From contig JAJRRT010000041.1 of the NCBI GenBank assembly GCA_024279255.1, forward strand, positions 119,711-183,710: a stretch of 64,000 nt of DNA, written 5' to 3'. Both the position numbers and the translations under genes were made by a program. The number at the start of each line of letters is the position of its first letter. Within the stretch, counting starts at the first letter, position 1. Below are positions 8,637 through 64,000 of the stretch, piece after piece. The notes under the pieces were generated by a model that worked only from the letters and a program-made list of their open reading frames with translations, was not told the DNA's origin and did not search any database. The stretch is from Deltaproteobacteria bacterium (lineage in GTDB: Bacteria; Desulfobacterota; Desulfuromonadia; Desulfuromonadales; Geopsychrobacteraceae).

Positions 8637-8652
8637 TGATATCCTCCGGGTC

Positions 8653-9441
8653 TTAGTTAGAAGCGGTCAAATCAGTCAGAAACCGAGTACTGAATCTGTC
8701 GCAGATTTCAAGGAGAAAAGGGTCAAGACAAATCAGAGCTGCGTCAAGTATAGCAGCTGGGACGCCGCCATAGAAAGCCTCGGCGATGCTTCCGGCAATC
8801 GCTGCTTGAGTGTCTGCGTCACCACCTAGGGAAACCGCGAGACGAATTGCCGAAATAAAATCGGTGCTCTCGAAAAAACAGCAGAGTGCCTCAGGCACAG
8901 ACTTCTGACAACTCACCTCAAAACTGTACTCAGGTCTGATCTGCGTCAGCGGACGCCGCAGGTCGTAGCCGAATGTTTCGATAATGAAGGATTGTATCGC
9001 GGCCTTCCCTGACCCGTTACGCGCCAGGAAGATCGCTGCAGCAACTGCTTGCGCGCCCTTGATGCCCTCGGGATGATCGTGAGTCGGCATTGCTGTTCGA
9101 GCCGCCAGGTCAAGTACCTCATCCAGTTCGCTAGCAACCCAAGCCACTGGTGCCACACGCATGGCAGAACCATTGCCATAGGAGTCATAGGGACGATCGG
9201 TATTGGACGCCGCCCAGCGAGAAAAACGTTGGCCATAGCCAGCATGCGGGTAGCGATGATAGAAGTCATGGTAGGTTTCGCCGAAGGGGCGCTGCCCAAG
9301 CAGTGCATCAGCTGTCGCCAGGGTAAGTATTGTATCGTCGGTGAAGCGGCAATCGGGTGAAAAGAGTTGAAAATTACAAGATTTGATGGGTTGAAATTCG
9401 AATCGTGAGCCAATAATATCTCCGACAATCGCTCCCAACAT
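8653..9441 (-). CDS. ADP-ribosylglycohydrolase (DraG-like) family protein
   Basis: GAIVGDIIGSRFE, FTDDTxLTLATADALL, YGNGSAMRVAPVAW, GGDADTQAAIAGSIAEAFYGG. Confidence 0.9.
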   Translation of the reverse strand: MLGAIVGDIIGSRFEFQPIKSCNFQLFSPDCRFTDDTILTLATADALLGQRPFGETYHDFYHRYPHAGYGQRFSRWAASNTDRPYDSYGNGSAMRVAPVAWVASELDEVLDLAARTAMPTHDHPEGIKGAQAVAAAIFLARNGSGKAAIQSFIIETFGYDLRRPLTQIRPEYSFEVSCQKSVPEALCCFFESTDFISAIRLAVSLGGDADTQAAIAGSIAEAFYGGVPAAILDAALICLDPFLLEICDRFSTRFLTDLTASN

Positions 9442-47499: not shown

Positions 47500-48010
47500 T
47501 CTCGATTACGACCTTGTATTCCGAGAGTCTGCTGGGTTCGCTGGGCAAACTCGGTGCTTCCAACGGCGACACTTTGTGACCAGATCTCTTCGCGCTGCAG
47601 TTCTTCTTGCAGAGCGCTTACGACCCAACTCTATATGCTTCTCGTAAAGTTTCGACACTGCATACTTCCAGTGCATCGGCAAGGCCATCTAAATCAATGG
47701 TCGTATTACGGCGTCAGTTGCCTTGAATTTCATGATAGCCGCCATGCTTCCATTCTTCGAGATGCATGACTATTCATGCGCGTACCATATTCAGATCAAG
47801 GTAGACGAGGCAACATTGTAGGTAGTTGCCGGTCTCTATAGCTGTCGCATGGTAGCGATCTTCCCAAAACGCGCCCTTGCGATGTTTTCTGGCATTGTAT
47901 TCTTGACCTGTTCGTCCAGCGACCAGCTGGATCAATCGACGGATCTCGTTGTCACCTCCTCTGTTTCTCACGATCAGATGGATATGATCGGAGGTTATTG
48001 TGTAGTTCAG
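47500..48010 (-). pseudogene. Decayed REP-associated tyrosine transposase (RAYT / Y1_Tnp)
   Basis: NYTITSDHIHLIVRNRGGDNEIRRLIQLVAGRTGQEYNARKHRKGAFWEDRYHATAIETGNYLQCCLVYLDLNMVRA*, then frameshifted EEWKHGGYHEI... and EELQREEIWSQSVAVGSTEFAQRTQ; N-terminus missing. Confidence 0.75.
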
Positions 48011-48298
48011 AATCTCTTCATACTTTTGATCGATAACTGCCTTGAACTCAGCACTGATCTGCGTCCAATCGAGAAGATCAACCCGAAACGGCAGGTCTGA
48101 TTCAACAAGGGCTTCACGCAGCTCACTCAGTTGCTGACTATCGATTTTTTCCTTACTGACAATCACCAGATCCAGATCAGAATAAGGCTTGGTGCTACCA
48201 TTGATCCGCGAGCCAAAAACGAGCACTTCACTGCCGGGGACATGCTCGGTCAACAAGCTTATAACGATCTCAAGTTCGTCATCGGAAAGATCAATCAT
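47774..48298 (-). CDS. MNT-type nucleotidyltransferase fused at its C-terminus to a RAYT fragment
   Basis: MIDLSDDELEIVISLLTEHVPGSEVLVFGSRINGSTKPYSDLDLVIV (GSxx...DLDLV nucleotidyltransferase signature) running directly into the HxH transposase region. Confidence 0.75.
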   Translation of the reverse strand: MIDLSDDELEIVISLLTEHVPGSEVLVFGSRINGSTKPYSDLDLVIVSKEKIDSQQLSELREALVESDLPFRVDLLDWTQISAEFKAVIDQKYEEILNYTITSDHIHLIVRNRGGDNEIRRLIQLVAGRTGQEYNARKHRKGAFWEDRYHATAIETGNYLQCCLVYLDLNMVRA

Positions 48299-48565
48299 TA
48301 CGCTTCTCAATTGCCTGCAACAGGGCCCTTGCATCAGCATAAAACCGTTCGGCACTGGCAAATATCTCAACCGCGACCTTCTGGTTATAGACATGCGAGG
48401 TCTTATTGCGAGCTTCGTGGTAGGCCCACCAGATCTTGACGTCGGTTATCAGCAGATTCTCAGACGCAATCCGGAACAACCAGTTCCAGATTGTGGACCC
48501 GCTCCAAGCCTGTCTTCAGAGAGGCTATCGCCTTTTCAAGGCTACCGAGGTCCAACATTGCGACA
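48291..48565 (-). pseudogene. HEPN (HI0074/HepT-like) protein remnant with internal deletion and frameshift
   Basis: N-terminal MLDLGSLEKAIASLKTGLERVHNLELVV in one frame; C-terminal LFRIASENLLITDVKIWWAYHEARNKTSHVYNQKVAVEIF in another; stop overlaps the MNT start (ATGATTGA). Confidence 0.7.
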
Positions 48566-48645
48566 AACCTTTCTCTTAAGGGCTTTTAAACAAGCTAAAA
48601 GCATAATCAACAGAGTCTTTTGCTAAAGGCTGATAATCAAACGTT

Positions 48646-48725
48646 CGTCATTCCCGCGGAGGCGGGAATCCAGAAGTTCTCGGGGACGGCCCAAAAACTG
48701 GATCCCCGTTTTCACGGGGATGACG
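48646..48725. repeat. MITE-like palindromic element
   Basis: CGTCATTCCCGCGGAGGCGGGAATCCAG ... CTGGATCCCCGTTTTCACGGGGATGACG imperfect terminal inverted repeats. Confidence 0.8.
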
Positions 48726-48824
48726 ACGTTTACAAGAGCCTCAACATACAGGAAATTATCGAATAGACACAGGCGTGTAAACGAAAAACCACAGTGTCCA
48801 GATTCAATAACCAACAAAATTAAC

Positions 48825-48976
48825 TATGGCCCTATCGGGCCAATGGCGGAGTCCACTACGGTCGGAACTCCCTCTCTGCGTAGATTCCCCTCCACCCGCT
48901 GACGCGGCTATCTCTGGCCGTTCTTCTGACATTTAGTCAGCGCTCACTTGGGTTCGATTCCCGCCACCTCCACCAA
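48825..48976 (+). repeat. ~150-bp repeat copy 1, ending in tmRNA-3'-end-like GGGTTCGATTCCCGCCACCTCCACCA
   Basis: TATGGCCCTATCGGGCCAATGGCGGAGTCCACTA...TGACATTTAGTCAGCGCTC...; matches copy 2 at 49023. Confidence 0.8.
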
Positions 48977-49022: not shown

Positions 49023-49175
49023 TATGGCCCTATCGGGCCAGTGGTGGGGTCCACTATGTTCAGGACATCATGTCCTTCTCGGCGTAGACTCCCATCCGCT
49101 CGCTGACGCGGCCATCCATGGCCGCTTTTCTGACATTTAGTCAGCACTCGCTGCGCTTCGATTCCCGCGACGACG
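49023..49175 (+). repeat. ~150-bp repeat copy 2 (divergent)
   Basis: TATGGCCCTATCGGGCCAGTGGTGGGGTCCACTATG...TGACATTTAGTCAGCACTC...TTCGATTCCCGC. Confidence 0.8.
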
Positions 49176-49182
49176 TCGCACA

Positions 49183-49221
49183 ATTAAAAAGGGCCGTCCC
49201 TTTTGGGACGACCCTTTTTAA
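49183..49221 (-). terminator. Strong hairpin, interpreted as ancestral ssrA terminator displaced by the island
   Basis: AATTAAAAAGGGCCGTCCCTTTTGGGACGACCCTTTTTAATT inverted repeat immediately outside the left att copy; on the minus strand it directly follows CCACCTCCACCA. Confidence 0.75.
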
Positions 49222-49236
49222 TTGGTGGAGGTGGCG
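49222..49236. repeat. Island direct repeat, left (att)
   Basis: TTGGTGGAGGTGGCG, identical to 63707-63721. Confidence 0.85.
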
Positions 49237-49298
49237 TCCATCACATAAAGTAATACAAATTACTGTTTTTACTGATATTTAATAAACGCGACAAAATC

Positions 49299-49324
49299 GA
49301 TTTACTGCATTACGTACTGCAACA
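49299..49324 (+). repeat. Candidate integrase arm-type site, left
   Basis: GATTTACTGCATTACGTACTGCAACA; 24/26 identical to 63572-63597. Confidence 0.7.
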
Positions 49325-49692
49325 GGTGTATTTTTACCAAGTGGATTCCGTGTTTCTCCATCGACTTAATGTTTTCACGTTGCCTCTTTCTCTGGCTTTT
49401 CTTCCTGCGCTTTTATTAACCCAATCCAAAAGCATGGATAGCAACCAGAACACCAGAGTCAGTTGCACACAATAACTCCGCCGCTAGCAGGTCATTTTTT
49501 ACACAAACGCACAAAAACCACACTACCCCTCACCCTTGCAAATCATCGCAATAAATCAGTAGCTACACAGTCTCCTGCGACCTTCTATATCAAATCAGAC
49601 CCCTCCTTATATCTATGGGAAATAAATCCCGCATGACCGCAACTCTTAAGTCATAACTGTTTTCTTATTGGGTTGTCAGAGGAGGTTTAACT

Positions 49693-50562
49693 ATGAACGT
49701 ACATGAGCAAGTTACCGCGAGGATTATGGAAATTTTAGAGGCTGGAACTATTCCCTGGAAGAAACCTTGGAACTCAAGTGAGGGGGCAAAGAACCTCATC
49801 AGCAAGAAGCCCTACCGAGGGATCAATCAGTTCCTACTGAACTGTTCACCCTATGGCAGCCCTTACTGGCTTACATATCGACAGGCAGCAGACAGGGGCG
49901 GTCAGGTTAGAAAGGGAGAGAAGTCTACACCCGTTGTGTTCTGGAAATGGTTAGACCGTAAGGATAGTGACGACCAGGATCAAGACTCAACCACAGGAAG
50001 AGTACCACTGCTCAGGTATTATAATGTTTTCAATCTGGAGCAGATCGACGGTATTACGGCACCAGTAGAGGAACAGCCTGTCAACTCTTTCTCACCCATT
50101 GAACAGGCTGAACTGGTCATCAGGAACATGCCATCCAGGCCTAACATCCTGCATGGTGGAGAGCGTGCCTTCTACTCCCCCAAGCTCGACTTCATCCAAC
50201 TCCCGCCAAAAGAAGCATTCACATCACCAGAAGAATTCTACAGCACGGCATTTCACGAGCTTGCTCATTCCTCTGGCCATGCCTCACGCTTGAGCCGCAA
50301 AGGAATTCTTGAGCCAAGTTACTTCGGAAGCCACGACTACAGCCAGGAGGAACTGGTCGCTGAGTTCGGGGCATCCATGCTCTGTGGCTATGCCGGTATC
50401 GAGCAGCAGACACTTGAGAATAGCGTAGCGTATATCCAAGGTTGGCTGAAGGTGCTTAAGGGCGATAAGAAACTTGCCATCGTCGCTGCAGGGCAGGCAC
50501 AGCGAGCTGCCGACTTCATCCTGAATATCCAGCATACCGACGATGAGCAGACCCAGACTTAA
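49693..50562 (+). CDS. ArdC-like antirestriction protein (ssDNA-binding domain + zincin metallopeptidase)
   Basis: MNVHEQVTARIMEILEAGTIPWKKPWN...YRGINQFLLN; FHELAHSSGH (HExxH); RBS GGAGG. Confidence 0.9.
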   Translation: MNVHEQVTARIMEILEAGTIPWKKPWNSSEGAKNLISKKPYRGINQFLLNCSPYGSPYWLTYRQAADRGGQVRKGEKSTPVVFWKWLDRKDSDDQDQDSTTGRVPLLRYYNVFNLEQIDGITAPVEEQPVNSFSPIEQAELVIRNMPSRPNILHGGERAFYSPKLDFIQLPPKEAFTSPEEFYSTAFHELAHSSGHASRLSRKGILEPSYFGSHDYSQEELVAEFGASMLCGYAGIEQQTLENSVAYIQGWLKVLKGDKKLAIVAAGQAQRAADFILNIQHTDDEQTQT

Positions 50563-50598
50563 CAAGTATTCAATGGATGCCGCTTGCATGCTCCTGCA

Positions 50599-50623
50599 CC
50601 TCCTGTAGAGGCGCTACAGGAGG
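50599..50623 (+). terminator. Hairpin after ardC-like gene
   Basis: CCTCCTGTAG-AGGCG-CTACAGGAGG 10-bp perfect stem. Confidence 0.55.
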
Positions 50624-50758
50624 CTTCCATTCAATCCAAGGGTAAGGGCCAGGGTTGCATTGCAGCGATGTCTGGCAGGGGCCTTGGGGCACATCTCTCA
50701 AGGTTGTGCGAGTCGGGGATCAGCAGGGCTAGAAGCTCAACAAACATCATTCCGCGAG

Positions 50759-50790
50759 AAAGGGGCAGGCCACAAGGCTGAGCCCCTTTT
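50759..50790 (+). terminator. Terminator-like hairpin upstream of radC-like gene
   Basis: AAAGGGGC ... GCCCCTTTT. Confidence 0.65.
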
Positions 50791-50810
50791 CGCATTAATG
50801 GAGACTAGCC

Positions 50811-51311
50811 ATGACCATACAAACATTATTCGGTGAGAACGAAGGTAATGAGACCCGCAGCATTCGGATGAAGGTGATTCGGCCAGTCTGGGAGACGCTG
50901 ACGATCAACGAAGTTGCTTCAGACTACATCGGTGGGCGCGCTCGGTTTACATCTTCCCGCGAAGTATTTGCGCTCTTCAACTTCCTGAAGTACGAAACCA
51001 AGGAACATTTTCTGGCTCTGCATCTGGACAGCAAGAACCGGATTCTCTGCCTGGACAAGGTATCGTCAGGTTCTCTGAATGCGTCGATTGTTCATCCGCG
51101 AGAGGTATTCAAGACGGCACTTCTCAGCAGTGCTGCAGCAATTTTATTTGTGCACAACCATCCCAGCGGAAACCCTGAGCCCAGCAGAGAAGACCTGGAG
51201 CTGACGACCAGACTCAAGCAGGCTGGCGACCTGCTGGGCCTTCGGGTACTGGACCACATCATCATCGGCGAAGATCGATACGTTTCTCTGGCCGATCAGG
51301 GCCTCGTTTAA
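50811..51311 (+). CDS. RadC-family JAB-domain protein
   Basis: FLALHLDSKNRILCLDKVSSGSLNASIVHPREVFKTALLSSAAAILFVHNHPSGNPEPSREDLELT (HNHPSG). Confidence 0.93.
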   Translation: MTIQTLFGENEGNETRSIRMKVIRPVWETLTINEVASDYIGGRARFTSSREVFALFNFLKYETKEHFLALHLDSKNRILCLDKVSSGSLNASIVHPREVFKTALLSSAAAILFVHNHPSGNPEPSREDLELTTRLKQAGDLLGLRVLDHIIIGEDRYVSLADQGLV

Positions 51312-51441
51312 ACTATCAGCTGGCGACCTGGCCCGGAACCAACCGGGCTGGGTATGCCGAACTGGATCTTCTTTATTTTTCTTTTCCTAAGTGATACTTT
51401 GCACTTCTGTACAATATCATATTGCTATCGGAGGGGAAGTA

Positions 51442-52905
51442 ATGTCCAAAAGCCTCATATCATTAGTTCTGATTGTCTTTTCATTTCTGTTGCCATCCTC
51501 ATGTTTAGCCTACACCAAAGATTCCATTGTCAAGATTTTCACTACAGCGGTGACCTACAACTACGATTCTCCCTGGCAGACATCAGGATCCACAGAAGGG
51601 ACAGGATCAGGTAGCATCATTTCTGGCCATCGTATCCTCACCAATGCGCATGTAGTTAGCAATGCGACTTTTATTGAGGTCAAGAAAAACGGAGATCCTC
51701 GCCGGTTTGTCGCACAGGTACTTGCTGTCTCGCACGATTCAGATCTGGCCTTGCTACAGGTTGAAAATGAATCATTCTTTAAGGACACAAAGCCATTGAC
51801 GTTTGGACCCCTGCCTAAGCTTTTGGATGAGGTAGTCGTCTATGGTTATCCTGAAGGGGGGAGTGGTCTTAGTGTCACCAGAGGGGTAACCTCCCGCATT
51901 GAAGTTACGCAATACGCACATAGTCGCTTGATGCTGCTGGGCGTCCAAATTGACGCCGCGATCAATGCCGGCAATAGCGGCGGCCCCGTCATTCTGGACA
52001 ACAAGATCGTAGGAGTGGCCACGCAGACCAAAGTTGATGCAGAGAATATCGGGTATATTGTCCCTGTTCCTATTATTGAGCACTTTCTTGCTGATCTGAA
52101 AGATGGCCAATATGACGGATTTCCAGATGACGGAATCACAACCCAGCCTCTGGAGAACCAGACATTTAGGGATTCTCTTCAACTTCCCGATGCAGAAACT
52201 GGAGTCTATGTTTATGAGGTCGTCCCAGGAGGGTCAACAGATGGCACATTGAAACCGGGCGACGTCTTGCTCAGCATCGACAACAACAATGTCGCCAACG
52301 ATGGTTCTGTGGTCCTTAGGCCGGACCTGCGGGTCCAATATGACTATTATTTCAGTGCAAGGCAGATTGGGGAAAAAGCCGAGATCACCCTCTGGCGGGA
52401 TGGCCAGAAGATATCGCTTTCAATCCCCTTGATCCACAAACGAGGTGACTCCTCCCCTATCAAGCCGCCTCAATATGACTCACCTCCCGAGTATATCATC
52501 CTCGCTGGTGTCATTCTCACGCCCCTCACTTACGACTACCTGAAGACCTGGGGTGAAGAGTTCGAGAAAAGTGCTCCACCACGCCTCTCTAAGTATCTTT
52601 ACAAAAAAAGAGCAGTCGCAGAAGAACAGGTTGTCATTATCAATGGCCTGCTATCCTCCCAAATGACTGCCGGTTATCAGAACATTGCCACAGATGAGCG
52701 GGTTATCTCTATCAACGGTCAATCCTTTGCTAACTTCAAAATACTGGATGAACTGATTGATGAAGCACTAAAGTCAGATGAACCGATAACCCTCCGATTG
52801 GAGGATAAAAGTATTATTGTCCTCTCCACAGTAGTTCATAAAATGAAAAATAAAAACCTATTGAGTCTCTATGGGGTAGGGAACGAAAAAAGGGTCAACA
52901 ATTAG
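51442..52905 (+). CDS. Exported HtrA/Deg-like trypsin-type serine protease with C-terminal PDZ-like region
   Basis: RBS GGAGGGG then ATG 51442; signal peptide MSKSLISLVLIVFSFLLPSSCLA; catalytic triad context LTNAHVV, DSDLALL, NAGNSGGPV. Confidence 0.88.
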   Translation: MSKSLISLVLIVFSFLLPSSCLAYTKDSIVKIFTTAVTYNYDSPWQTSGSTEGTGSGSIISGHRILTNAHVVSNATFIEVKKNGDPRRFVAQVLAVSHDSDLALLQVENESFFKDTKPLTFGPLPKLLDEVVVYGYPEGGSGLSVTRGVTSRIEVTQYAHSRLMLLGVQIDAAINAGNSGGPVILDNKIVGVATQTKVDAENIGYIVPVPIIEHFLADLKDGQYDGFPDDGITTQPLENQTFRDSLQLPDAETGVYVYEVVPGGSTDGTLKPGDVLLSIDNNNVANDGSVVLRPDLRVQYDYYFSARQIGEKAEITLWRDGQKISLSIPLIHKRGDSSPIKPPQYDSPPEYIILAGVILTPLTYDYLKTWGEEFEKSAPPRLSKYLYKKRAVAEEQVVIINGLLSSQMTAGYQNIATDERVISINGQSFANFKILDELIDEALKSDEPITLRLEDKSIIVLSTVVHKMKNKNLLSLYGVGNEKRVNN

Positions 52906-52943
52906 ACCCAGTCTCGTTCGATGAAATAGGAAACTAATTTTAA

Positions 52944-53729
52944 ATGTTTTATTTAGCTGTTGCCTCTAAAGTGTCAAGAAAACTAGTTAAGATTCAAATA
53001 TTAGGCATACTGGGCCTCATTTCAACCTTAACCATTACCCACTCTTATGCTGCCGGGAACGAAATGAACCAATCGTTCAATAAAGCGAAAAAGATCCTGC
53101 TCCGAGAAGTGTACAGAGATCACCGTCAGACCTTCTATTGCAACTCTGAGTTTGACTCAAAGAAGCGAGTTTTCCATACCGGAGGTTACATCCCCAAGAA
53201 AAACAACAAACGAGCACACCGCCTAGAATGGGAGCATGTCGTGCCTGCACATGCTTTTGGTCAGAGCTTCCCTGAATGGAGGGATGGAGATCCTAGGTGC
53301 ATCAGTAGTAAGGGCAAGCCATTTAAAGGGCGTAGATGTACTGAGAAACTCAATGTGCCGTATCATTATATGCAAGCCGACATGCACAACCTTGTACCCG
53401 CCATTGGGGAAGTCAACGGTCTACGTTCTAACTACTCGTTTGCCATGATCCCAGGAGAAGCAAGGCAGTTTGGCTTGTGTGATATGGAGATATCAAACCG
53501 TAAAGCCGAACCACCCGAATCAGTACGTGGGGACATTGCACGAACATATTTATATATGGACGACTCCTACCCAGGCAGAGGGATAATTAGCAAGAAGACC
53601 CGCAAGTTATTTGACGCATGGGATAAGCAGGATCGAGTAGATCAGTGGGAGTGTGAAAGAGAACTGCGCATAAGGGCGATACAGGGCAACGGCAACAAGT
53701 TTGTTAATCGTGAATGTCCAGGCGGGTAA
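52944..53729 (+). CDS. Exported endonuclease I (EndA/NucM) family nuclease
   Basis: RDHRQTFYCNSEFDSKKRV...RAHRLEWEHVVPAHAFGQSFPEWRDGDPRC...DMHNLVPAIGEVNGLRSNYSFAMIPGE; signal peptide. Confidence 0.92.
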   Translation: MFYLAVASKVSRKLVKIQILGILGLISTLTITHSYAAGNEMNQSFNKAKKILLREVYRDHRQTFYCNSEFDSKKRVFHTGGYIPKKNNKRAHRLEWEHVVPAHAFGQSFPEWRDGDPRCISSKGKPFKGRRCTEKLNVPYHYMQADMHNLVPAIGEVNGLRSNYSFAMIPGEARQFGLCDMEISNRKAEPPESVRGDIARTYLYMDDSYPGRGIISKKTRKLFDAWDKQDRVDQWECERELRIRAIQGNGNKFVNRECPGG

Positions 53730-53775
53730 CTCATTTTATTTCGTATTTCTGGGTTAATAAAAACAGGAGACATAC

Positions 53776-54093
53776 ATGAAAAAGCTTATTCTATTGATAA
53801 TCACAATAGTTCTATTCGCAACACCTGCAGTGGCTGTAACACAGGATGAGTATTGTGACGTTATGGGTACGACCGGTGGCTACATGATGGTATTCCGTCA
53901 GAGAGGTATGGCTAAAGCCGATGCCATCAAGCTCCACAAACTCGTGTCCTACAGTGAAAGCTATGAACAGTTCGGCGATGTCTTAGCTAAAGAGGCGTAC
54001 AAGTGGAATGTCGTTGAAGGCCAATACGAACAAGCCATGCAAATACAGTTGTTCACTAAGACTGTCTACGATTTCTGTATGAGTATTGATTGA
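53776..54093 (+). CDS. Small exported hypothetical protein
   Basis: MKKLILLIITIVLFATPAVAVTQDEYC signal; RBS GGAG. Confidence 0.65.
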   Translation: MKKLILLIITIVLFATPAVAVTQDEYCDVMGTTGGYMMVFRQRGMAKADAIKLHKLVSYSESYEQFGDVLAKEAYKWNVVEGQYEQAMQIQLFTKTVYDFCMSID

Positions 54094-54151
54094 TACCCTG
54101 TGAGCCCTCGTAATAGGGCTTTATAACTTCAATAACTAGCGAGGCAAGGAT

Positions 54152-54688
54152 ATGCTTAATAATTTTAAAAATAATCGACAAACTATGATTATCATTTTTA
54201 TAACGTGTCTATTAACTATTCCATCTCTGTCATATGCATCAAGCATGTTTGATGATTTTAAATCTGGTGAGTTTGGAAATATACTCGAAAAACGGGAAAT
54301 CCGAAATTGGAATGAAGTAAACAAAAACAAGATAACTTTTGATAATAGCAAGCTAGGTTGCAGCGGCTATAAGAATAAGTATGAGCGGCCTAAAGACTGT
54401 ATGTTTTCTTCTACAATTACAAATAATAGTGATGAGTATATTTCATATGTAGTTGTGAAAATAGAATTTATGAATAAAACAACCGAGAAAGTTATTGTTG
54501 AAAAAAAAGAAACATTCAAGATGCCAATCATACCGACAGCTACCAAGGAGATAAAAGTTTATTTTGACAATTCAAACTTTAAGCAGATTCCCGAACAGCT
54601 AGTAGACAATTGGGCATGGAACTTTGAATTTTTAGGAGCTATCCCACAGGACATGACTTTCAGTAGCTCTGATTACAACTGGCTTTAA
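54152..54688 (+). CDS. Exported hypothetical protein
   Basis: Signal-like TMIIIFITCLLTIPSLSYASS; 178 aa, low GC. Confidence 0.65.
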   Translation: MLNNFKNNRQTMIIIFITCLLTIPSLSYASSMFDDFKSGEFGNILEKREIRNWNEVNKNKITFDNSKLGCSGYKNKYERPKDCMFSSTITNNSDEYISYVVVKIEFMNKTTEKVIVEKKETFKMPIIPTATKEIKVYFDNSNFKQIPEQLVDNWAWNFEFLGAIPQDMTFSSSDYNWL

Positions 54689-54809
54689 TACAAAAGCTCC
54701 CTGGAGTGATTTTGCACATAGAATAAAAATGGACAGCCTGACACTGCCCCGCAAAATTTGAAAATGTGTGCTTGCTTGTCACATAAGCCAACGGAAATGG
54801 AGAAATGAA

Positions 54810-55235
54810 ATGATGGTTAAAAAGGGGTTAATCGTAATTTGTTTACTGCTGTTTTCTTCACAGGCGTTTGCGGTTTGTAACCCCAAGTTATCTGTAGCGG
54901 AAGAGGAAGCGGCTTTAGAAGAATTTGGAGGGGCAGGCGATTTATTCGCAAACTGCATGAAGATTCAAGGGGCGATCATGATCAAACGGGGAGAAACTGG
55001 TCGCGATAATATTCTTGGTCAATCTCTCTCAAGATGCAAGGCAGAATTTGGCGACTGCGCAGAGGTTCTAGTCAATTTAGGTTGTTCAAAAGCCGAGGCA
55101 CTCCAAACGGTCACATTAATCAATCGCCAGAGTTTAGACACTATTTATTCAAATGCGCAAATACATTTTCAACGAACCAATAAATTTAGGGAGGGGATGT
55201 TATGGGTATCAGAAATAGAATTATTCGTGGATTAA
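54810..55235 (+). CDS. Exported hypothetical protein, paralogue A
   Basis: VKKGLIVICLLLFSSQAFAV; GRDNILGQSLSRC; LGCSKAEA. Confidence 0.65.
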   Translation: MMVKKGLIVICLLLFSSQAFAVCNPKLSVAEEEAALEEFGGAGDLFANCMKIQGAIMIKRGETGRDNILGQSLSRCKAEFGDCAEVLVNLGCSKAEALQTVTLINRQSLDTIYSNAQIHFQRTNKFREGMLWVSEIELFVD

Positions 55236-55633
55236 TCATACTTTGCTTACTGCTACTTTCTTCACAGGCTTTCGCACAGAGTTGTGAAGACCTGTTAAAT
55301 GGTCATTATTCTGATGAGTTCTATAAAGAGATTAAACTATTGTCATTTTGCATGGTTTATGAGGGTGCAAACTTAATTGAGCAGGGGGAAGCTGGTCGCG
55401 ATAATGTCATTAAAAAATCACTCATTGAATGTGGGTTTGATTTTGCTGTGGCTAGACGGGTTGCGATCGATACAGGTTGTTCAAAAAGTGAATCAACCAT
55501 CGCAGCTACGTTACCCGTAATGGAGCAGGCAGATAACATATATAAAGCTGCGCAAACAGGTGCGCGAGCATACGCAAAACCTGATACGGAACTAATGAAA
55601 GAAGTGAAACGATTATTCTTCGAAAAGGATTAA
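55202..55633 (+). CDS. Exported hypothetical protein, paralogue B
   Basis: RGLIILCLLLLSSQAFAQ; GRDNVIKKSLIEC; TGCSKSES; overlaps paralogue A by 34 bp. Confidence 0.65.
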   Translation: MGIRNRIIRGLIILCLLLLSSQAFAQSCEDLLNGHYSDEFYKEIKLLSFCMVYEGANLIEQGEAGRDNVIKKSLIECGFDFAVARRVAIDTGCSKSESTIAATLPVMEQADNIYKAAQTGARAYAKPDTELMKEVKRLFFEKD

Positions 55634-56031
55634 TCGTAGTTTGTATAGACTCAAGCATCAATCAGTGCCTATCAGAAAACTACACAAAACAACATATTTC
55701 ATGTATTTCCAAAGAGTTGGCGTTTACAGTACACCTAACTATTAAAAGACATTTTTGATGGAGATCCTAACACACTGGAAATAATAATTTTATTTGAGAC
55801 AATGAGAACTTTTGTCATACTTCTACAAGTACTGAAACATGACACCTAAATCTCTCAAATTCGGAAAATGGGCATGCACGAACATAACACCTATCTCCGG
55901 CAAAGCCGGTTTGTTTTGGTGGCTGGCAGGCCATTCCAGTTTCCCCGCATATTTTTGTAAACCTATCCCAGTCATTTTGTTATCATGCTGCTAATTGCTA
56001 TCTGTATAAAATTAATTGGGAGAATATAAAA

Positions 56032-56436
56032 ATGAAAAAAATATTCCTTATTGTTTTGGTGCTGTTTTTTGGGTTTAGTATATCAAGTGCTCATGCTATC
56101 AGCATTGAAACTCTAGCGAGAAATGCAGCAAATGATATCAACAAACAAACCCCCATCTATAAAGATGAGCACACCCGCCTTAATTCTGCATTAGCAGTCG
56201 GAAAAGTAATCACTCTCAACTATACGCTGGAGCAATTCAGCGCAGATAAGCTTTTTTCTATGTACTACAAAAGCGACATTGATAATCTGATGGTTGAAAC
56301 TGCAACCCCCTTGTGCTTGCTACCGGACCTAAAAGGGCTAATCAAAAAGGGGGCTGCTTTTCAAGCTGTTTATACAGGCAAACATGGAGGGCTAGTTTCT
56401 CGAGTTATGATTGATCGTAGTTTCTGCGGATACTAG
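56032..56436 (+). CDS. Exported hypothetical protein
   Basis: MKKIFLIVLVLFFGFSISSAHA signal; NAANDINKQTPIYKDEHTRLNSALAVGKVITLNYTL; RBS GGGAG. Confidence 0.65.
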   Translation: MKKIFLIVLVLFFGFSISSAHAISIETLARNAANDINKQTPIYKDEHTRLNSALAVGKVITLNYTLEQFSADKLFSMYYKSDIDNLMVETATPLCLLPDLKGLIKKGAAFQAVYTGKHGGLVSRVMIDRSFCGY

Positions 56437-56669
56437 GAGAAAATATAAGAAAAATATTTTTGCTTGTATGCCTCTGCCCTTTGCCAACTCTATTGTATTT
56501 AAGCCCCCACACCCGTGCCATGCCCCTTATGACGGCATTTTGAGAGGCTCTCCCCTCTTTATCAAGTTCATCGGCGATAATTTCCCTCCGTTGAAAACCC
56601 TGCAAACGAGGTTGCCGGCAACACTGTGGACAATATAAGCGCGGCTAAAACCAACGATCTTTTCATTTA

Positions 56670-57050
56670 TTATTTACAGCGATACTTTAGATATAATGCA
56701 GTAGCTACAGTTACTGCATCCTCATCATTGTCATAAGGTTTAGACCTTAAATGTTGCATTACTGTTTTAAGATAATCCTTTGGGCCTATGTTGCCCGCAC
56801 AAGCCTTATAGTCCTCTTCGGGGGCAGCAAATAACGTCATTCCATAAAACATTCCTTTTACCAAACCCAGACAATAGCCCGCTCCATAAAGAATATCTTC
56901 GCCTTTTTTGTGCGAGGCCACGCTTTTGTCAACAAGTAGGTATAGATCCTCACATTGTTTTAGCAATGCTTGAGACTTACTCTCTGCAAACGTGGTAGTC
57001 GGTAATATCAGGACCAGAGCAAGTGTCGCAAAAACCAAAAGACTTTTCAT
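56670..57050 (-). CDS. Exported Rap1a/Tai-immunity-like protein
   Basis: Signal MKSLLVFATLALVLILPTTTFA; GAGYCLGLVKGMFYG...CAGNIGPKDYLKTVMQHLRSKPYDNDEDAVTVATALYLKYRCK, spacing resembling Rap1a proteins. Confidence 0.65.
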   Translation of the reverse strand: MKSLLVFATLALVLILPTTTFAESKSQALLKQCEDLYLLVDKSVASHKKGEDILYGAGYCLGLVKGMFYGMTLFAAPEEDYKACAGNIGPKDYLKTVMQHLRSKPYDNDEDAVTVATALYLKYRCK

Positions 57051-57083
57051 TTATCTCCCCCCTTGAATTGCGTAGACATGTCA

Positions 57084-57257
57084 TTAATTTGTACTTGAGC
57101 ACGTCGAGCCAAAACTAATTTCTACAACCTCACCATCACTATACTTACAGAATCTACTTGTGCCTTCTGTCCATTGTGACATCAAGACACTCGCAAATGC
57201 TGTTGATGATATGAACAACAGTAACATGACTAAACTGATTTTAATTTTCTTACTCAT
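57084..57257 (-). CDS. 57-aa exported protein missed by the ORF track
   Basis: Manual translation: MSKKIKISLVMLLLFISSTAFASVLMSQWTEGTSRFCKYSDGEVVEISFGSTCSSTN*; clear signal peptide; upstream of 56670-57050 on the same strand. Confidence 0.6.
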   Translation of the reverse strand: MSKKIKISLVMLLLFISSTAFASVLMSQWTEGTSRFCKYSDGEVVEISFGSTCSSTN

Positions 57258-57709
57258 AGCTATGGCTCCTTTGTTGTTTAGAATTAACTACCTGGCTATT
57301 AGACAAAGCATCCTCCATGGTCGGCTACACCAAATAAGGTATCGTGGTAATTTGTATTGGTTGAACTGTTGGCAGGGATTTCGGCAGGAAAGATCAGAAA
57401 TACAAGCATGAATTGTGTCCACCCCTCCAATTCGTAAGAACACTTTACCAAATTTAAAGTTCAATGAAAACACAATCCTCGCACTGCTTTTTCGTGTACC
57501 TTCTAGAGACTTCAGCTTTTTTCAAATTTTTCTCATCTGGGTACGCGGTCAGTACTATATCGCAAAGGTCTAGTTCCAAAGCTACCCCCCCGGTACCTAT
57601 ATAACTTTGCCCGACGTTTTTTTCAAATACGTTTCCACTACAACACCAACATCACAAGCCTTTTTACATGGATGGCAATAGTGCCACCATCCCTGATCAG
57701 GAGTCTATT

Positions 57710-57898
57710 ATGAAACCAGCACAGTCTTTGCTACCTGAGTCCGTCCGAAACATCGTTGAATCTGTTAATTGTGCATCGCGCATCATCCTCAAGACCTGCG
57801 AAGGTGCTGAACGTACCGTTACTGGCCTCGATGAGGTCACAACCCTCATGCTCAAGCAACAGCAGAATCGCCTGCTTGTTGAACTGGCAGATGCGTAA
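57710..57898 (+). CDS. Small hypothetical protein
   Basis: MKPAQSLLPESVRNIVESVNCASRIILKTCEGAERTVTGLDEVTTLMLKQQQNRLLVELADA; AGGAG RBS; followed by a GC hairpin at 57908-57923. Confidence 0.55.
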   Translation: MKPAQSLLPESVRNIVESVNCASRIILKTCEGAERTVTGLDEVTTLMLKQQQNRLLVELADA

Positions 57899-57907
57899 CT
57901 CTAACGT

Positions 57908-57923
57908 CCCCGCTTCGGCGGGG
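57908..57923 (+). terminator. Short GC hairpin
   Basis: CCCCGC-TTCG-GCGGGG followed by ATTAAATCTTT. Confidence 0.6.
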
Positions 57924-58081
57924 ATTAAATCTTTAAAGCTATTTACACTTTAAAAGCTTACACACACCACAGCCACACCAACATCAGATAGTATTCTTAA
58001 AGACAGATCCCTCACCACATGGATAAAGCATTTCATCCCAGGGCTTCAATCATGACCCAAACCACAGTTTGCACTATCGCC

Positions 58082-58808
58082 AGCCTGCCAGGCTAGACAC
58101 TCCGTTCGGCACGTCGCATAACGAATTCTTTATGCAACATGCCCCAGCCAGTAACAGCTGGGGTTCCCTCACTCTCGTTTCAACATAATAGAATTATGTT
58201 AACTACCCTGGCAGACAAGGCGACAGGGTTTCAGGGCATCTCAACACTCCAGAAGCACTCCTTCATTACATACCAACAGAAACCATTGGTACTTCATTAC
58301 GGAGTAATTCTTCCGTATAACCTTCAATCACGGCTCACAGATAAAATCTCTGTCAGCCTAAGACCATTCATTGCGCCTACGGCGTATTCTAGTTGATCCC
58401 CGCCCACCCGGCACTAGCGGTATCTATCCAATCAGGTCAGTCATGCCATGATGTTGTTAGCTTCTACTGTCAGAGGTATTTGTGTGCCGCCCGTCCGCCC
58501 CATGGGCTCCCAGACAATCAATATCAATTTGACCAAAGAAACTATCTATGTAAATATTCGTTCTATGGGGGGGACATAAACCACCCATATTGAGCCCGGT
58601 TCAGTCGACCCTCCTCCACTGTTCCGGGCTTTCTTTATTTAACGATTTGAAATTCCCAGGCTGCTCGTCTAACCGAAGACGACCTAACCATTACCGTTCT
58701 CATCTGATATACAACATTGCGACTCACCACGTTTACCATTTGGCCGATAGTATCAGTGCAAGCGGTGGATGTGATACCTGCTGCTGGCGCATGCCACGCA
58801 TGCAGGTA
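58082..58808. other. Hairpin-dense non-coding tract
   Basis: Serial perfect inverted repeats at 58082-58094, 58116-58135, 58142-58163, 58182-58200, 58205-58229, 58298-58317, 58593-58630, 58665-58682, 58750-58777, 58775-58808; no convincing ORF on either strand. Confidence 0.65.
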
Positions 58809-58857
58809 GGAACGGGCAACGCGACAGTACTGATCCTATCGAGCCAAATATGAACTA

Positions 58858-59325
58858 TTAAAAATTATCCAAGCAATTTTCTCGATTTTCTTCTATGCAA
58901 TAAATGGAACATGCTTTGTGCAAATAACGCAAAAACTTTAGATGGTCCCTCTTGCCCTTGCTATGGCTAATATTCCTATCGACATCGGCGAGAAACGATC
59001 TTACTTCATTATCTGACATGTCATCCAGATACCTATATTCATAGTCATCATAGCCACAATCAAGGCATACCGGGACATAGCCACCTTGTGTCATATGATA
59101 CCTTCGAACCTCAGCTGTACCCATATTTCTAGAATCAAACGACGCTCCTATTCGTAGTGCTGGCAGATCAACATTTAACCCCTCATGCAATGACTTCGCG
59201 GTCAGACTACTTGTTGCTGGTTCCGGCTCTATAAACATTGAAATTAGGGCATTAACAAAATCCAACTTTCGTTCATCAGTATTCAATCCATCGACTATCT
59301 CTTGTTTTATTGTCACCGTTTTCAT
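58858..59325 (-). CDS. Hypothetical protein
   Basis: 155 aa with VPVCLDCGYDDYEYRYLDDMSDNEVRSFL; island gene. Confidence 0.55.
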   Translation of the reverse strand: MKTVTIKQEIVDGLNTDERKLDFVNALISMFIEPEPATSSLTAKSLHEGLNVDLPALRIGASFDSRNMGTAEVRRYHMTQGGYVPVCLDCGYDDYEYRYLDDMSDNEVRSFLADVDRNISHSKGKRDHLKFLRYLHKACSIYCIEENRENCLDNF

Positions 59326-59591
59326 TATGGGTTCCTTTGTTTATATAATTTATTTGCCATGTCTCATCAGATACCATTTCACTCCTGCTTTTTCGCCTTC
59401 AAGGTAGGCATTCGCCTGCCAACAGGCTTCAAAGCAGTCACAATGGTATCTGCTTCGCCATGGGCACTAGGGCCCAAGACTGCTTGTCTTAGGCCTCAAC
59501 AGGCATTAACTTCACATCCTAGGCAGCCCGAAGGCTCCGTTACACAAAGCAGGGCAATGACAGCCCTGCCTTGCTGGAGTTTTTACTGCCA

Positions 59592-61196
59592 TCACAGAAC
59601 CGGCTGCTCATCGCTTAAAATGGCCGAATCATCCAGTTCACAGATTTCACCTTGCGCTTTAAGCGCATTTGCGTTTTTAGTCACCATCGCTTCAGTTTGC
59701 TCAGGGGTTAAAACGCTTTTTGCGCAAAAACGCCTATCTATTTTTCTGTAGGTCGTTTTCGGCGCACCTCCTGTAGCAGTGGTTTCACATTCTACGATTC
59801 CATCAGAAATAAGCTGTTCAAGTAGTTCCTGTAGTATGTGACTGCCTATATGGTTTGAAAATGCCTCTTTACGTATCTCTGTCGTTGTCTTTGTCCCAGC
59901 ACCAAGACACTTCAGTATTTTCTGTTTTTTTCTATCTGGAACAGTAGTGCCATCAAAAATGAAATTGGCACTTTGGTCGGCATATTTCCAGAAGACTAGT
60001 GCCGCCTCAATGTCTTCTACCCCAATGCTTTTACCTTTTCTGAATAGGCAGTATACCAACGCAAGCCTTAAAACATATGGAGCGGCTCTGGCTATTATTG
60101 TTCCGGCAATTCCCGGCCGTGACTCCGCTAAATCAGGGTAACAATCTGACCATAGTTGTTTAGCCTCATTGGTTAGCTTATATTCTTTACCTTCATGCGC
60201 TAACTTAATGGCACTTTCAATATGCTCTGCCATCTTTTGTTTTACATGGACTGGCAACGGCTCCGGGAAAGGAACCAGCTTTGTGCGTTTAGCACATATC
60301 CATAGAAAGCGATTTCCAAAACCATTCATCTTGTCATTCTCAGACAACAGCTTTTTAAGCTCAAAAAGCGTAATATGTGCAATGATTCCAACATGGGCAT
60401 TTGTACAACGGATTATTGAGGTTTTGGTTATTGGCTCACAATTTCCGCTATCAAACAGCGTCCTGATAATTGATGACAAAGTATTACCTTCACGCTTTGA
60501 TGCTTGCAGTGAAGAGGAAAATTCTTCTTCAATAACAAGCAAACATTTGTCCTTCATGCCTGGATCTGTAACTTGCCAATTACCTGAGTTGGTCTTTTTA
60601 TCTGTCACCCACTCTTGAGCCTCATCACGAACCGCATTAATGATTCCTTCACCAGTAGAAAGAGGACCGGGAGACGTCTTACATCCACGCTCAACTAATT
60701 CAAAAACCACTTTGACTGGACCAATCGATGTTCCTTTTCTGGCGCTATTAGACTCACCAACAACAACCCCATTAATCCTGGCATAATGTTTTGTATCCCC
60801 GACCATGAGATACGGATTTGGGCCGCAAGATATGGCAAAATGACTAAGTAGAGTTATTAATATTGCCGCCGGATCAGCTTCGCTGTTCTTTGTTGCTTCC
60901 TTGATGAAATCACCGATAACACGGGGCATTGCCTCTGGCTGGAGAGGGTCTGGCCAAAGTTGTTTTTTGTTAAGCGTATTCGGTTCTTCAGGTTCAACAG
61001 TTTTTGCTGCTTCAATATTTGATGATACATCTACTTCGGCAGGGTTCGATCCACCTTGCACAGAGGAAGTATCTTGTTGGTTTAAGTCTGACCCTTGTAT
61101 ATTTTTATCAACGTGGTTATCATCTATTTCGTTATCAGTAGTATCGAGCTGTGGATCTGTTGGCCCAGATCCCAGCTCATCTATTTTCCCTTTCAT
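59592..61196 (-). CDS. DUF3987-family (YfjI-like) protein
   Basis: DFIKEATKNSEADPAAILITLLSHFAISCGPNPYLMVGDTKHYARINGVVVGESNSARKGTSIGPVKVVFE; CLLVIEEEFSSSLQASKREGNTLS. Confidence 0.88.
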   Translation of the reverse strand: MKGKIDELGSGPTDPQLDTTDNEIDDNHVDKNIQGSDLNQQDTSSVQGGSNPAEVDVSSNIEAAKTVEPEEPNTLNKKQLWPDPLQPEAMPRVIGDFIKEATKNSEADPAAILITLLSHFAISCGPNPYLMVGDTKHYARINGVVVGESNSARKGTSIGPVKVVFELVERGCKTSPGPLSTGEGIINAVRDEAQEWVTDKKTNSGNWQVTDPGMKDKCLLVIEEEFSSSLQASKREGNTLSSIIRTLFDSGNCEPITKTSIIRCTNAHVGIIAHITLFELKKLLSENDKMNGFGNRFLWICAKRTKLVPFPEPLPVHVKQKMAEHIESAIKLAHEGKEYKLTNEAKQLWSDCYPDLAESRPGIAGTIIARAAPYVLRLALVYCLFRKGKSIGVEDIEAALVFWKYADQSANFIFDGTTVPDRKKQKILKCLGAGTKTTTEIRKEAFSNHIGSHILQELLEQLISDGIVECETTATGGAPKTTYRKIDRRFCAKSVLTPEQTEAMVTKNANALKAQGEICELDDSAILSDEQPVL

Positions 61197-61414
61197 GATG
61201 CGACCTCCTGATCTTGGTCTCTTTTTTCAATCCGAGACAATATCCATTCGTCAATCTCACTCTCAAGCCACCCGACTGATCTTGATCCTAAATTTATTGG
61301 TTTAGGAAATGTCCCGACAGCAATAAAATTGTAGATTGAGGAGAGGCAAATCCCAGTCCTGTCCACTACCTGCTTGCGCCTTAAGATTTTGTGTTTACTG
61401 CTTGTTTGATTCAT
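61193..61414 (-). CDS. AlpA-family (MerR-like HTH) regulator / excisionase
   Basis: ILRRKQVVDRTGICLSSIYNFIAVGTFPKPINLGSRSVGWLESEIDEWILSRI; stop overlaps DUF3987 start. Confidence 0.9.
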   Translation of the reverse strand: MNQTSSKHKILRRKQVVDRTGICLSSIYNFIAVGTFPKPINLGSRSVGWLESEIDEWILSRIEKRDQDQEVAS

Positions 61415-61492
61415 TGATTTAGCTCCTATAGCAAATAAGTGTTAATGGCCGATATTGGCTTTTTCTACAATGCCAAAGGCGAGACACAAAAA

Positions 61493-61523
61493 AAGGTCAC
61501 TGAAAAACTTCTCTCAGTGACCT
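61493..61523 (-). terminator. Hairpin between island genes
   Basis: AGGTCACTG ... CAGTGACCT 9-bp stem. Confidence 0.65.
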
Positions 61524-61579
61524 CTTCGATTTACTCTTAAAATATTGAATACTTAAGCTATTTCATTTTTAGAAAATAA

Positions 61580-62185
61580 TTATTTTTTATTGCTATCCCG
61601 CCACTCCCTGAACGCTTGCGCAAAACTATCTTCATATAGATACGGTGGACCGGGTGGGGGCTTATCGTTTCCTTGATACAATTCGTAAAAAATGGCATAA
61701 ACCTCTTTCACATCGAAATCCTTGCGAGCGGGGAGCCATCTTCTTAACATATCCAAAATGTCTTTATTACCAGTATCGACACCATTAAATATCCCAAAAT
61801 CACCATGGAATAAATGCCAGAAACTATCTAAATCTGTTTGGGCGATATGCAACAGTTCAAACAATTTATCTTTGTCAGGATTTCCAGCTAGTATTCTATA
61901 CTTTTCAGACTTTTTGTTCTTTACTGCCTGTTTTCGATGTTTCCTTTCGTTAACTTCAACTTCATTCTTGATTGTTTTAAACAGCACCGTAATAACATTA
62001 GAAGGGACAGGTTGATTATTCTCCACACATTTCAACCAACACCTTTTTGCATCTATTCCTGACATTTTTGCGCGATAATCTTCACAATCTACACGCCCGT
62101 AACTAGGACCATGTATCAAAGATTCGACTTCTTCCTCAGCCTTCCATTCGGACTCTTCATCCGAAATATAATCATCATCTTGCAT
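61580..62185 (-). CDS. Hypothetical protein
   Basis: 201-aa acidic/basic ORF between integrase and AlpA. Confidence 0.55.
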   Translation of the reverse strand: MQDDDYISDEESEWKAEEEVESLIHGPSYGRVDCEDYRAKMSGIDAKRCWLKCVENNQPVPSNVITVLFKTIKNEVEVNERKHRKQAVKNKKSEKYRILAGNPDKDKLFELLHIAQTDLDSFWHLFHGDFGIFNGVDTGNKDILDMLRRWLPARKDFDVKEVYAIFYELYQGNDKPPPGPPYLYEDSFAQAFREWRDSNKK

Positions 62186-62257
62186 TAAGCTATCCTCCCC
62201 AATACATACGTTTTACTATCACGGATTGTCGTATGCAGTAGATCCAAACTTAGATAT

Positions 62258-63529
62258 TTATACGGTACTATTCTTTCGAATCGGAATGACCTTCGCTTTA
62301 ACTTCCTTCAACCCATCAAGATAATCGGCCCATATCTGCATCATACGAAACCGCTCATCCAGATGCTGCGCCCTGTTGTAGCTTTCACCTAAAGGGTCAG
62401 CCACTGCGTGAAAAAGCTGTTTTTCAATAGCCGTAGGCGTATGCCCTAAAATCTCATCCAGCTTCGTCCTGGCAACAGCTCTCCACCCATGCGTTGAATG
62501 AGTTTTCTTGTCATAACCCAGGTTACGCAAAGCAGCATTTAATGTGTTTTCCGATAGCGGCTTAGCATTTCTTCCCTTGGTGTCGGGAGCTATTCTTATT
62601 GAAGGGAAAACCAACCTGCCAGCTCCAGTAAGAGGCTGAATCTCCCTCAGTATGGCAACAGCTTGATGCGATAGAGGGATAAGATGTTTCTCCCCTGCCC
62701 TTTTGATCTTCTGGTTTGTCTTGAGTTTCATCCTCTCAATAGGGATCTCCCAAGTAGATTTATCAAGATTAAATTCACACCATTCAGCAAACCTCAGTTC
62801 ACCCGGACGTTGAAAAACCAGTGGGGCTAATTGCAATGCACAGCAGGTAATGAAGTGACCACTGTAACTGTCAATATCTCTAAGCAATTGCCCAAGCTTA
62901 ACCTCATCAAGTAACGCGGGGTGGTGGGTTGGTATAACCTCCTGCAATGCACCTTTTAAATCACTGGAGACGTCACGATCAGCCCTTCCGGTTGAAACAG
63001 CGTAACAGAACACCTGTCCAGCAATTGACTTGCACCGGTGAGCAGTCTCAACCGCTCCTCTTGACTCAATTCTTCGCAGTACGCTTAAAAGTTCTGTTGC
63101 AGTAATTTCCCGTAGCGGTCGCTTGCCTATCCAAGGGAACAGATTGTTCTTCATTCTAGCCATGGTGGTCACAGTATGACTTTCGGACCATACCTGCTTT
63201 TTCTTTTTCAACCACTCAAGAGCAATCGGTTCAAACGTTTCTTCTTGTGAGGTCTTGCGAACATCTGAAGGGTCAATCTTATCGGCAATCTGCTTACGTG
63301 CTCCCCTTAGCTTCTCTTGAGCTTCAACCAGTGAAGTATCTGGGTACTTACCAAACGCCAAGGTATTCCGCCCTCCAGCTGGCCTGGTGTAATCAAAACG
63401 CCAAAGCTTTGAACCATCTGGCTTGATTATTAAATACAAACCTTCACCATGAGATAAACGATAAGGTTTGTCTCTCAGCTTAGCTGTTCTGATTCTGGCA
63501 TCGGTTAATTTCTTAACGGCTTTTGGCAT
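62258..63529 (-). CDS. Tyrosine recombinase/integrase (P4-type, DUF4102 N-terminus)
   Basis: KKLTDARIRTAKLRDKPYRLSHGEGLYLIIKPDGSKLWRFDYTRPAGGRNTLAFGKYPDTSL; catalytic core RPGELRFAEW...HGWRAVARTKLDE...H. Confidence 0.93.
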   Translation of the reverse strand: MPKAVKKLTDARIRTAKLRDKPYRLSHGEGLYLIIKPDGSKLWRFDYTRPAGGRNTLAFGKYPDTSLVEAQEKLRGARKQIADKIDPSDVRKTSQEETFEPIALEWLKKKKQVWSESHTVTTMARMKNNLFPWIGKRPLREITATELLSVLRRIESRGAVETAHRCKSIAGQVFCYAVSTGRADRDVSSDLKGALQEVIPTHHPALLDEVKLGQLLRDIDSYSGHFITCCALQLAPLVFQRPGELRFAEWCEFNLDKSTWEIPIERMKLKTNQKIKRAGEKHLIPLSHQAVAILREIQPLTGAGRLVFPSIRIAPDTKGRNAKPLSENTLNAALRNLGYDKKTHSTHGWRAVARTKLDEILGHTPTAIEKQLFHAVADPLGESYNRAQHLDERFRMMQIWADYLDGLKEVKAKVIPIRKNSTV

Positions 63530-63571
63530 CCACCATCTCCAATCGTTGCAGTACACAGAAAGTTAATCATT

Positions 63572-63597
63572 GATTTACTGCATAACGTACTGTAACA
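63572..63597 (+). repeat. Candidate integrase arm-type site, right
   Basis: GATTTACTGCATAACGTACTGTAACA; further GTACTGCAACG units at 63609-63619 (+) and 63544-63554 (inverted). Confidence 0.7.
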
Positions 63598-63650
63598 AAC
63601 CATGGAATGTACTGCAACGTAATAGACGATAATGGACAGCAGGCAAAGAA

Positions 63651-63675
63651 AAAGCCCTGAATATTCAGGGCTTTA
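63651..63675 (-). terminator. Island-supplied replacement terminator for ssrA
   Basis: AAAGCCCTGAATATTCAGGGCTTT palindrome directly downstream of the tmRNA 3' end. Confidence 0.7.
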
Positions 63676-63706
63676 AATGTTTCATTGTACTTAATTAAAT
63701 GTTCAT

Positions 63707-63721
63707 TTGGTGGAGGTGGCG
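63707..63721. repeat. Island direct repeat, right (att, ssrA 3' end)
   Basis: TTGGTGGAGGTGGCG, identical to 49222-49236. Confidence 0.88.
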
Positions 63722-64000
63722 GGAATCGAACCCGCGTCCGAAAGCCTTCTACGATAGGCCTCTACATGCTTAGTCTATGATTTAAATTTAACCGCAGCAA
63801 AGCTCCCACAGACAGGATATTCGCCAGGCGATTCTACTTTAGTTTCGCCCCGATGCCGTAGACCCTCACCGGAACTAGCCTGCTAAATTAACGTCTCGTC
63901 AGCCACACAGGCAATGATTGAAAAGACGTAGCAGCTTAAGCTGCTAGTGCGTAACGAACGTCAGTATCGGCGTTTGTTAGTATGGGCTTTGTTTCGGAGC
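63708..64000 (-). ncRNA. ssrA: tmRNA (5' end beyond window)
   Basis: 3' end GCGGGTTCGATTCCCGCCACCTCCACCA; tag ORF reading ...ADTDVRYALAA* (GCC GAT ACT GAC GTT CGT TAC GCA CTA GCA GCT TAA). Confidence 0.93.

Follow-up and report, generated by a model that had tools for sequence, protein, structure and literature searches.

How nine neighbouring genes that all appear to encode exported proteins came to lie on one mobile island, and whether their products act together, is the question raised by positions 51442-57257 of the window (the whole stretch of 64,000 nucleotides analysed, which forms the end part of a 183,710-base contig). The explanation that we judge best, and to which we give roughly an even chance, is an integrase-type island at ssrA whose mosaic envelope cargo was gathered in several acquisitions and is not one co-evolved machine.

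The island at ssrA

The original prediction treated the nine genes as island cargo, and the island is real. It covers ~14.5 kb (about 49222-63721) at the 3' end of ssrA (tmRNA) and carries a 15-bp direct repeat at both edges. The boundaries and the recognisable backbone are as follows.

49222-49236, left boundary: distal attachment repeat TTGGTGGAGGTGGCG, a copy of the ssrA 3' end
49693-50562, + strand: ArdC-type antirestriction protein (ArdcN and MPTase-PolyVal)
50811-51311, + strand: RadC-like JAB protein
59592-61196, - strand: replication-type protein, weak match to the phage helicase phrog_5311
61193-61414, - strand: AlpA regulator
62258-63556, - strand: tyrosine integrase, adjoining ssrA
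63707-63721, right boundary: attachment repeat at the ssrA 3' end
63708-64000, - strand: ssrA (tmRNA), 3' part, cut by the contig end (Rfam tmRNA, 131.5 bits)

An integrase beside ssrA, with the 3' end of ssrA repeated at the far edge, identifies an integrative genomic island at ssrA, and on its strand of the window the 15-bp repeat occurs at these two edges only. ArdC, RadC, the nine exported genes and the backbone all fall within the boundaries, the island genes counted beside the cargo being ArdC, RadC, 57668, 58858, 59592, AlpA, 61580 and the integrase. No mating genes were recognised among the products scanned, and the replication protein 59592 has no relatives in the viral contigs or related genomes searched. 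The arrangement of integrase, repeat and AlpA is that of other integrase islands at ssrA, from which this island differs in a cargo made up almost entirely of exported proteins.

The sequence around the left edge has features of its own. A strong hairpin at 49181-49224 looks like the displaced original ssrA terminator. Just outside the island an imperfect repeat is present in two copies (48869-48967 and 49073-49171, 83% over 99 bp), the first of which terminates in a piece of the ssrA 3' end, inverted, that includes the exact 15-mer on the opposite strand (48962-48976), perhaps the scar of an earlier insertion. Further out, an ORF at 47774-48394 (- strand) encodes a nucleotidyltransferase domain fused with a transposase domain of IS200 type (Y1_Tnp), probably a chimera that a REP-type element produced, and a short inverted-repeat element of a kind common in bacterial intergenic regions lies at 48640-48730 (CGTCATTCCCGCGGAGGCGGGAATCC...).

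Nine consecutive exported products

All nine consecutive ORFs of the original prediction were confirmed at 51442-57257 with unchanged coordinates, and decayed copies of two start regions lie among them.

51442-52905, + strand: exported HtrA protease, Deg9/Deg2-like, catalytic triad intact (Pfam Trypsin_2/PDZ/PDZ_3)
52944-53729, + strand: exported endonuclease I of the EndA/NucM family, both catalytic motifs (EWEH and HNLVPA) intact (Pfam Endonuclease_1)
53776-54093, + strand: small exported protein, phrog_2315 / DUF3836
54152-54688, + strand: exported protein, weak DUF2393 match below cut-off, 32% GC
54810-55235, + strand: small exported orphan, tandem paralogue of 55202
55202-55633, + strand: small exported orphan, tandem paralogue of 54810
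55612-55647: short decayed third start region, common to 54810 and 55202
56032-56436, + strand: small exported protein, few (four) distant relatives of unassigned function
56599-56670, - strand: decayed second copy of the signal-peptide region of 56670, directly downstream of that gene (72% over 72 bp)
56670-57050, - strand: small exported protein, sub-threshold Rap1a match
57084-57257, - strand: very small exported protein, 57 aa, no family

The Sec-type signal peptides originally read by eye were recovered by a rule-based test written for this analysis (charged n-region, hydrophobic core, A-x-A-like site), which scored 9/9 cargo genes as positive against 0/8 of the other island genes. Among other ORFs of the same genome, taking the first start codon gave 32/223 positives and allowing any early Met gave 45/223, a background of 14-20%. 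At 20% nine consecutive positives would be expected by chance with a probability of about 6e-7; background runs reach 6, showing that neighbouring genes are not independent, and the excess is strong all the same.

Common export, contiguity and strand (seven of the nine genes on +, with 56670 and 57084 on -) are what would be expected if protease, DNase and small proteins formed one envelope defence system against phage, conjugation or transformation, but the distribution of the genes argues against such a system. HtrA, EndA and the small proteins do not co-occur in any relative fetched. The EndA relatives examined have neither HtrA nor any small protein alongside, EndA was not found in the DNA fetched around close HtrA relatives (three of these stretches being short), and hardly any relatives of the small proteins searched turned up in other genomes of the class. 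The GC content of the cargo genes is likewise uneven, ranging from 32% to 47% versus 49.6% for the genome, which suggests separate origins, and PADLOC matched HtrA through its generic protease domain alone and left the remaining eight genes without a match. We therefore regard a single defence system as highly improbable, and the proposal of one co-operating set is not supported by the linkage looked for among these relatives. A known anti-phage defence system was also rejected, no PADLOC model being matched beyond the generic protease domain of HtrA. Promoter and terminator scans gave no more matches than shuffled sequence.

The protease and the nuclease

The assignment of 51442 to the HtrA-like proteases holds, with Trypsin_2, PDZ and PDZ_3 found in Pfam and an intact triad (H70, D101 and S179) that is invariant in six relatives. 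In profile searches plant Deg9 and Deg2 are matched with E about 1e-143 versus about 1e-31 for DegP, and an identity as DegP, DegQ or DegS was rejected, with 51442 below all of their NCBIfam cut-offs (best TIGR02037, 129.2 bits vs 416.2). By these sequence comparisons the protease is of Deg9/Deg2 type, not DegP/DegQ. The plant proteins match it over its full length through protease domain, PDZ and PDZ_3, whereas the window protein is bacterial, has a signal peptide and is encoded on an island. Its close relatives are rare, the nearest (68% identity) lying in a 3.8-kb metagenomic contig beside an ORF that by eye resembles a GIY-YIG nuclease; others occur in two related genomes (46% and 40%) and in Sulfurovum and Leptospira records (about 38-39%). 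These rare bacterial relatives are spread over distant phyla.

The endonuclease I call for 52944 is equally secure, both by its Endonuclease_1 match (112.7 bits, curated cut-off 25) and by its catalytic motifs. The protein gives a full-length profile match to the structure of the Vibrio endonuclease I Vvn (PDB 1ouo, E 8e-54), in which E97, H98 and N149 align with the Vvn motifs EWEH and HNL, whose His, Asn and Glu residues are known to be catalytic. The window EndA differs from Vvn in being island-borne and in an insertion around residues 115-128 that is absent from Vvn in the alignment.

EndA is scattered in its distribution. It is present in 5/97 related genomes at about 61-69% identity, once as a fragment, and in unrelated gene contexts. 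The closest relatives are sporadic chromosomal genes, followed by plasmid copies (up to 60% identity, 111 plasmid records in all) and by prophage copies, which by eye lie, for example, just after a CI-like repressor in one prophage (L086) and after phage morphogenesis genes in another (L084). In the former (7298-9297) the EndA relative directly downstream of the repressor is itself followed by another small exported-looking protein, an arrangement expected for a lysogen-expressed gene. In two loci from another family of the phylum (L076, 9523-13485; L079, 6640-10315) EndA relatives adjoin hxs-like genes, read by eye as a His-Xaa-Ser (hxs) radical-SAM operon.

Of the roles offered in the original prediction, a periplasmic barrier against incoming DNA is a reasonable one for EndA by itself and does not extend to the whole block as one set. 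DNases carried by mobile elements, Dns of C. jejuni CJIE1 and IdeA of a V. cholerae ICE, have been reported to inhibit transformation (PMC4774983), and this precedent together with the relatives on plasmids and prophages makes the barrier reading reasonable. Like Dns and IdeA, the window EndA is a DNase encoded by an integrated mobile element, predicted to be exported and expected to cut external double-stranded DNA. Catalytically intact and with relatives on mobile elements, it fits a transformation-blocking role, and by analogy it probably works as Dns and IdeA do. Identity of the window protein to a Helicobacter prophage member is low (35%), and its effect on transformation is predicted. 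That Helicobacter protein is nearer by host to the tested Campylobacter Dns; in the tree it sits on a long branch outside the clade of the window EndA. Against the barrier reading, the tree places the window EndA among chromosomal copies from its order, outside the plasmid/prophage group, and some relatives occupy ordinary chromosomal contexts; plasmid, viral and most f64-family copies form a supported group beside the chromosomal ones, with inner support that is partly weak. A ComEC-type Competence domain was found in the genome, which alone does not establish competence of the host.

The enzyme families of the protease and the nuclease both include housekeeping members, and their relatives here occur singly in ordinary chromosomal contexts, as they might if EndA supplied external DNA as food and the protease answered envelope stress. 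Such a nutritional or housekeeping cargo is distinctly unlikely in our view, since it explains neither the small orphan genes nor why EndA recurs on plasmids and prophages.

The small exported proteins and the role of the cargo

The small proteins are mostly orphans, two sets of which show tandem duplication and decay. The tandem paralogues 54810 and 55202 are 37% identical, with 13/17 residues identical in the signal regions versus 37/116 in the mature parts, and neither has a relative among 276 other genomes of the class. The decayed copy beside 56670 corresponds to the first 72 bp of that gene, for which the rest of the class gave a single weak match. Neither 55202 nor 56670 has relatives in plasmids or viral contigs, and 56032 has none in plasmids. 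53776 is a member of phage family phrog_2315; no relatives were found in the phage records or viral contigs searched. For 54152 and 57084 the searches covered family libraries only. Together with the uneven GC, the tandem paralogues and decayed copies point to repeated acquisition, duplication and decay, in keeping with the mosaic cargo that we favour.

The original prediction described the small proteins as immunity-like and one product as Rap1a-like. The match of 56670 to PF18602 (Rap1a) does span the whole profile (E 2.4e-5), but at 25.2 bits it is below the curated cut-off of 27.7, so that the similarity is weaker than had been stated, a confident Rap1a identity was rejected, and the immunity-like label is carried by one of the seven small proteins, through this sub-threshold match. 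Solved Rap1a/Tai4 chains gave no match. Rap1a has a helical fold held by the disulfide Cys78-Cys122 (PMC3852654), and 56670 has four cysteines after its signal (C33, C60, C84 and C125). Its model is all helical with a pLDDT of 53.6, and no fold match was found at that low confidence; the structure predictions of both 56670 and 55202 are of such low confidence that fold searches are meaningless. 56670 thus resembles Rap1a/Tai4 immunity proteins in its small size, export and weak whole-profile match, and departs from them in its score and in the absence of an effector gene nearby and of Tae4 from the genome. Self-toxicity on loss of 56670, an idea also raised there, is unsupported, no toxin partner being recognised in the block.

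Could the small proteins nevertheless be an orphan array of periplasmic immunity proteins directed against competitors' toxins, with EndA and HtrA as separate passengers? The precedent is SAIDI-1 of Salmonella Typhi, an orphan immunity islet that encodes small proteins in a row, mostly active in the envelope, and in which most genes have recognised immunity homology (PMC7400221). This genome has neither a T6SS sheath gene (PF05943) nor Tae4, so any immunity here would be orphan, and the conserved signal regions and diverged mature parts of 54810 and 55202 are as such an array might show. Unlike SAIDI-1, the island has a single recognisable candidate, itself sub-threshold, and an islet defined by several recognisable immunity genes was rejected on that count; with poor structure models besides, we consider the array unlikely as an account of the cargo. 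As a guess at what the small proteins do, periplasmic immunity is nonetheless the best founded, given the near-threshold Rap1a match, the missing Tae4 and sheath genes, the tandem divergence and the islet precedent. A still broader construction, an acquired envelope shield in which EndA would act against foreign DNA, a duplicating array of unrecognised immunity proteins against toxins and the Deg9-type protease as a third layer, seems to us improbable.

For the mosaic island that we prefer, the functions of the cargo proteins, which we infer in every case, could combine as follows. Intact EndA would probably pass to the periplasm or the outside and degrade incoming double-stranded DNA; its activity would make natural transformation less frequent, which would shield the island from being replaced by recombination. 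ArdC would guard the island's own DNA upon entry. The Deg9-type protease probably serves quality control of envelope proteins, and binding or inhibition in the periplasm is the probable role of the small exported proteins, among them candidate immunity proteins that duplicate and diverge.

An island at ssrA and a DNase on a mobile element are known kinds, and the island as a whole overturns no known picture; the composition of its cargo is unusual. PADLOC recognised nothing specific in it, so defence screens built on known systems would overlook an island whose cargo is almost wholly exported. The small exported orphans offer a concrete set for testing periplasmic immunity, and the nuclease adds a candidate transformation-blocking enzyme borne by an integrated island, a testable case of mobile elements guarding themselves against DNA uptake.
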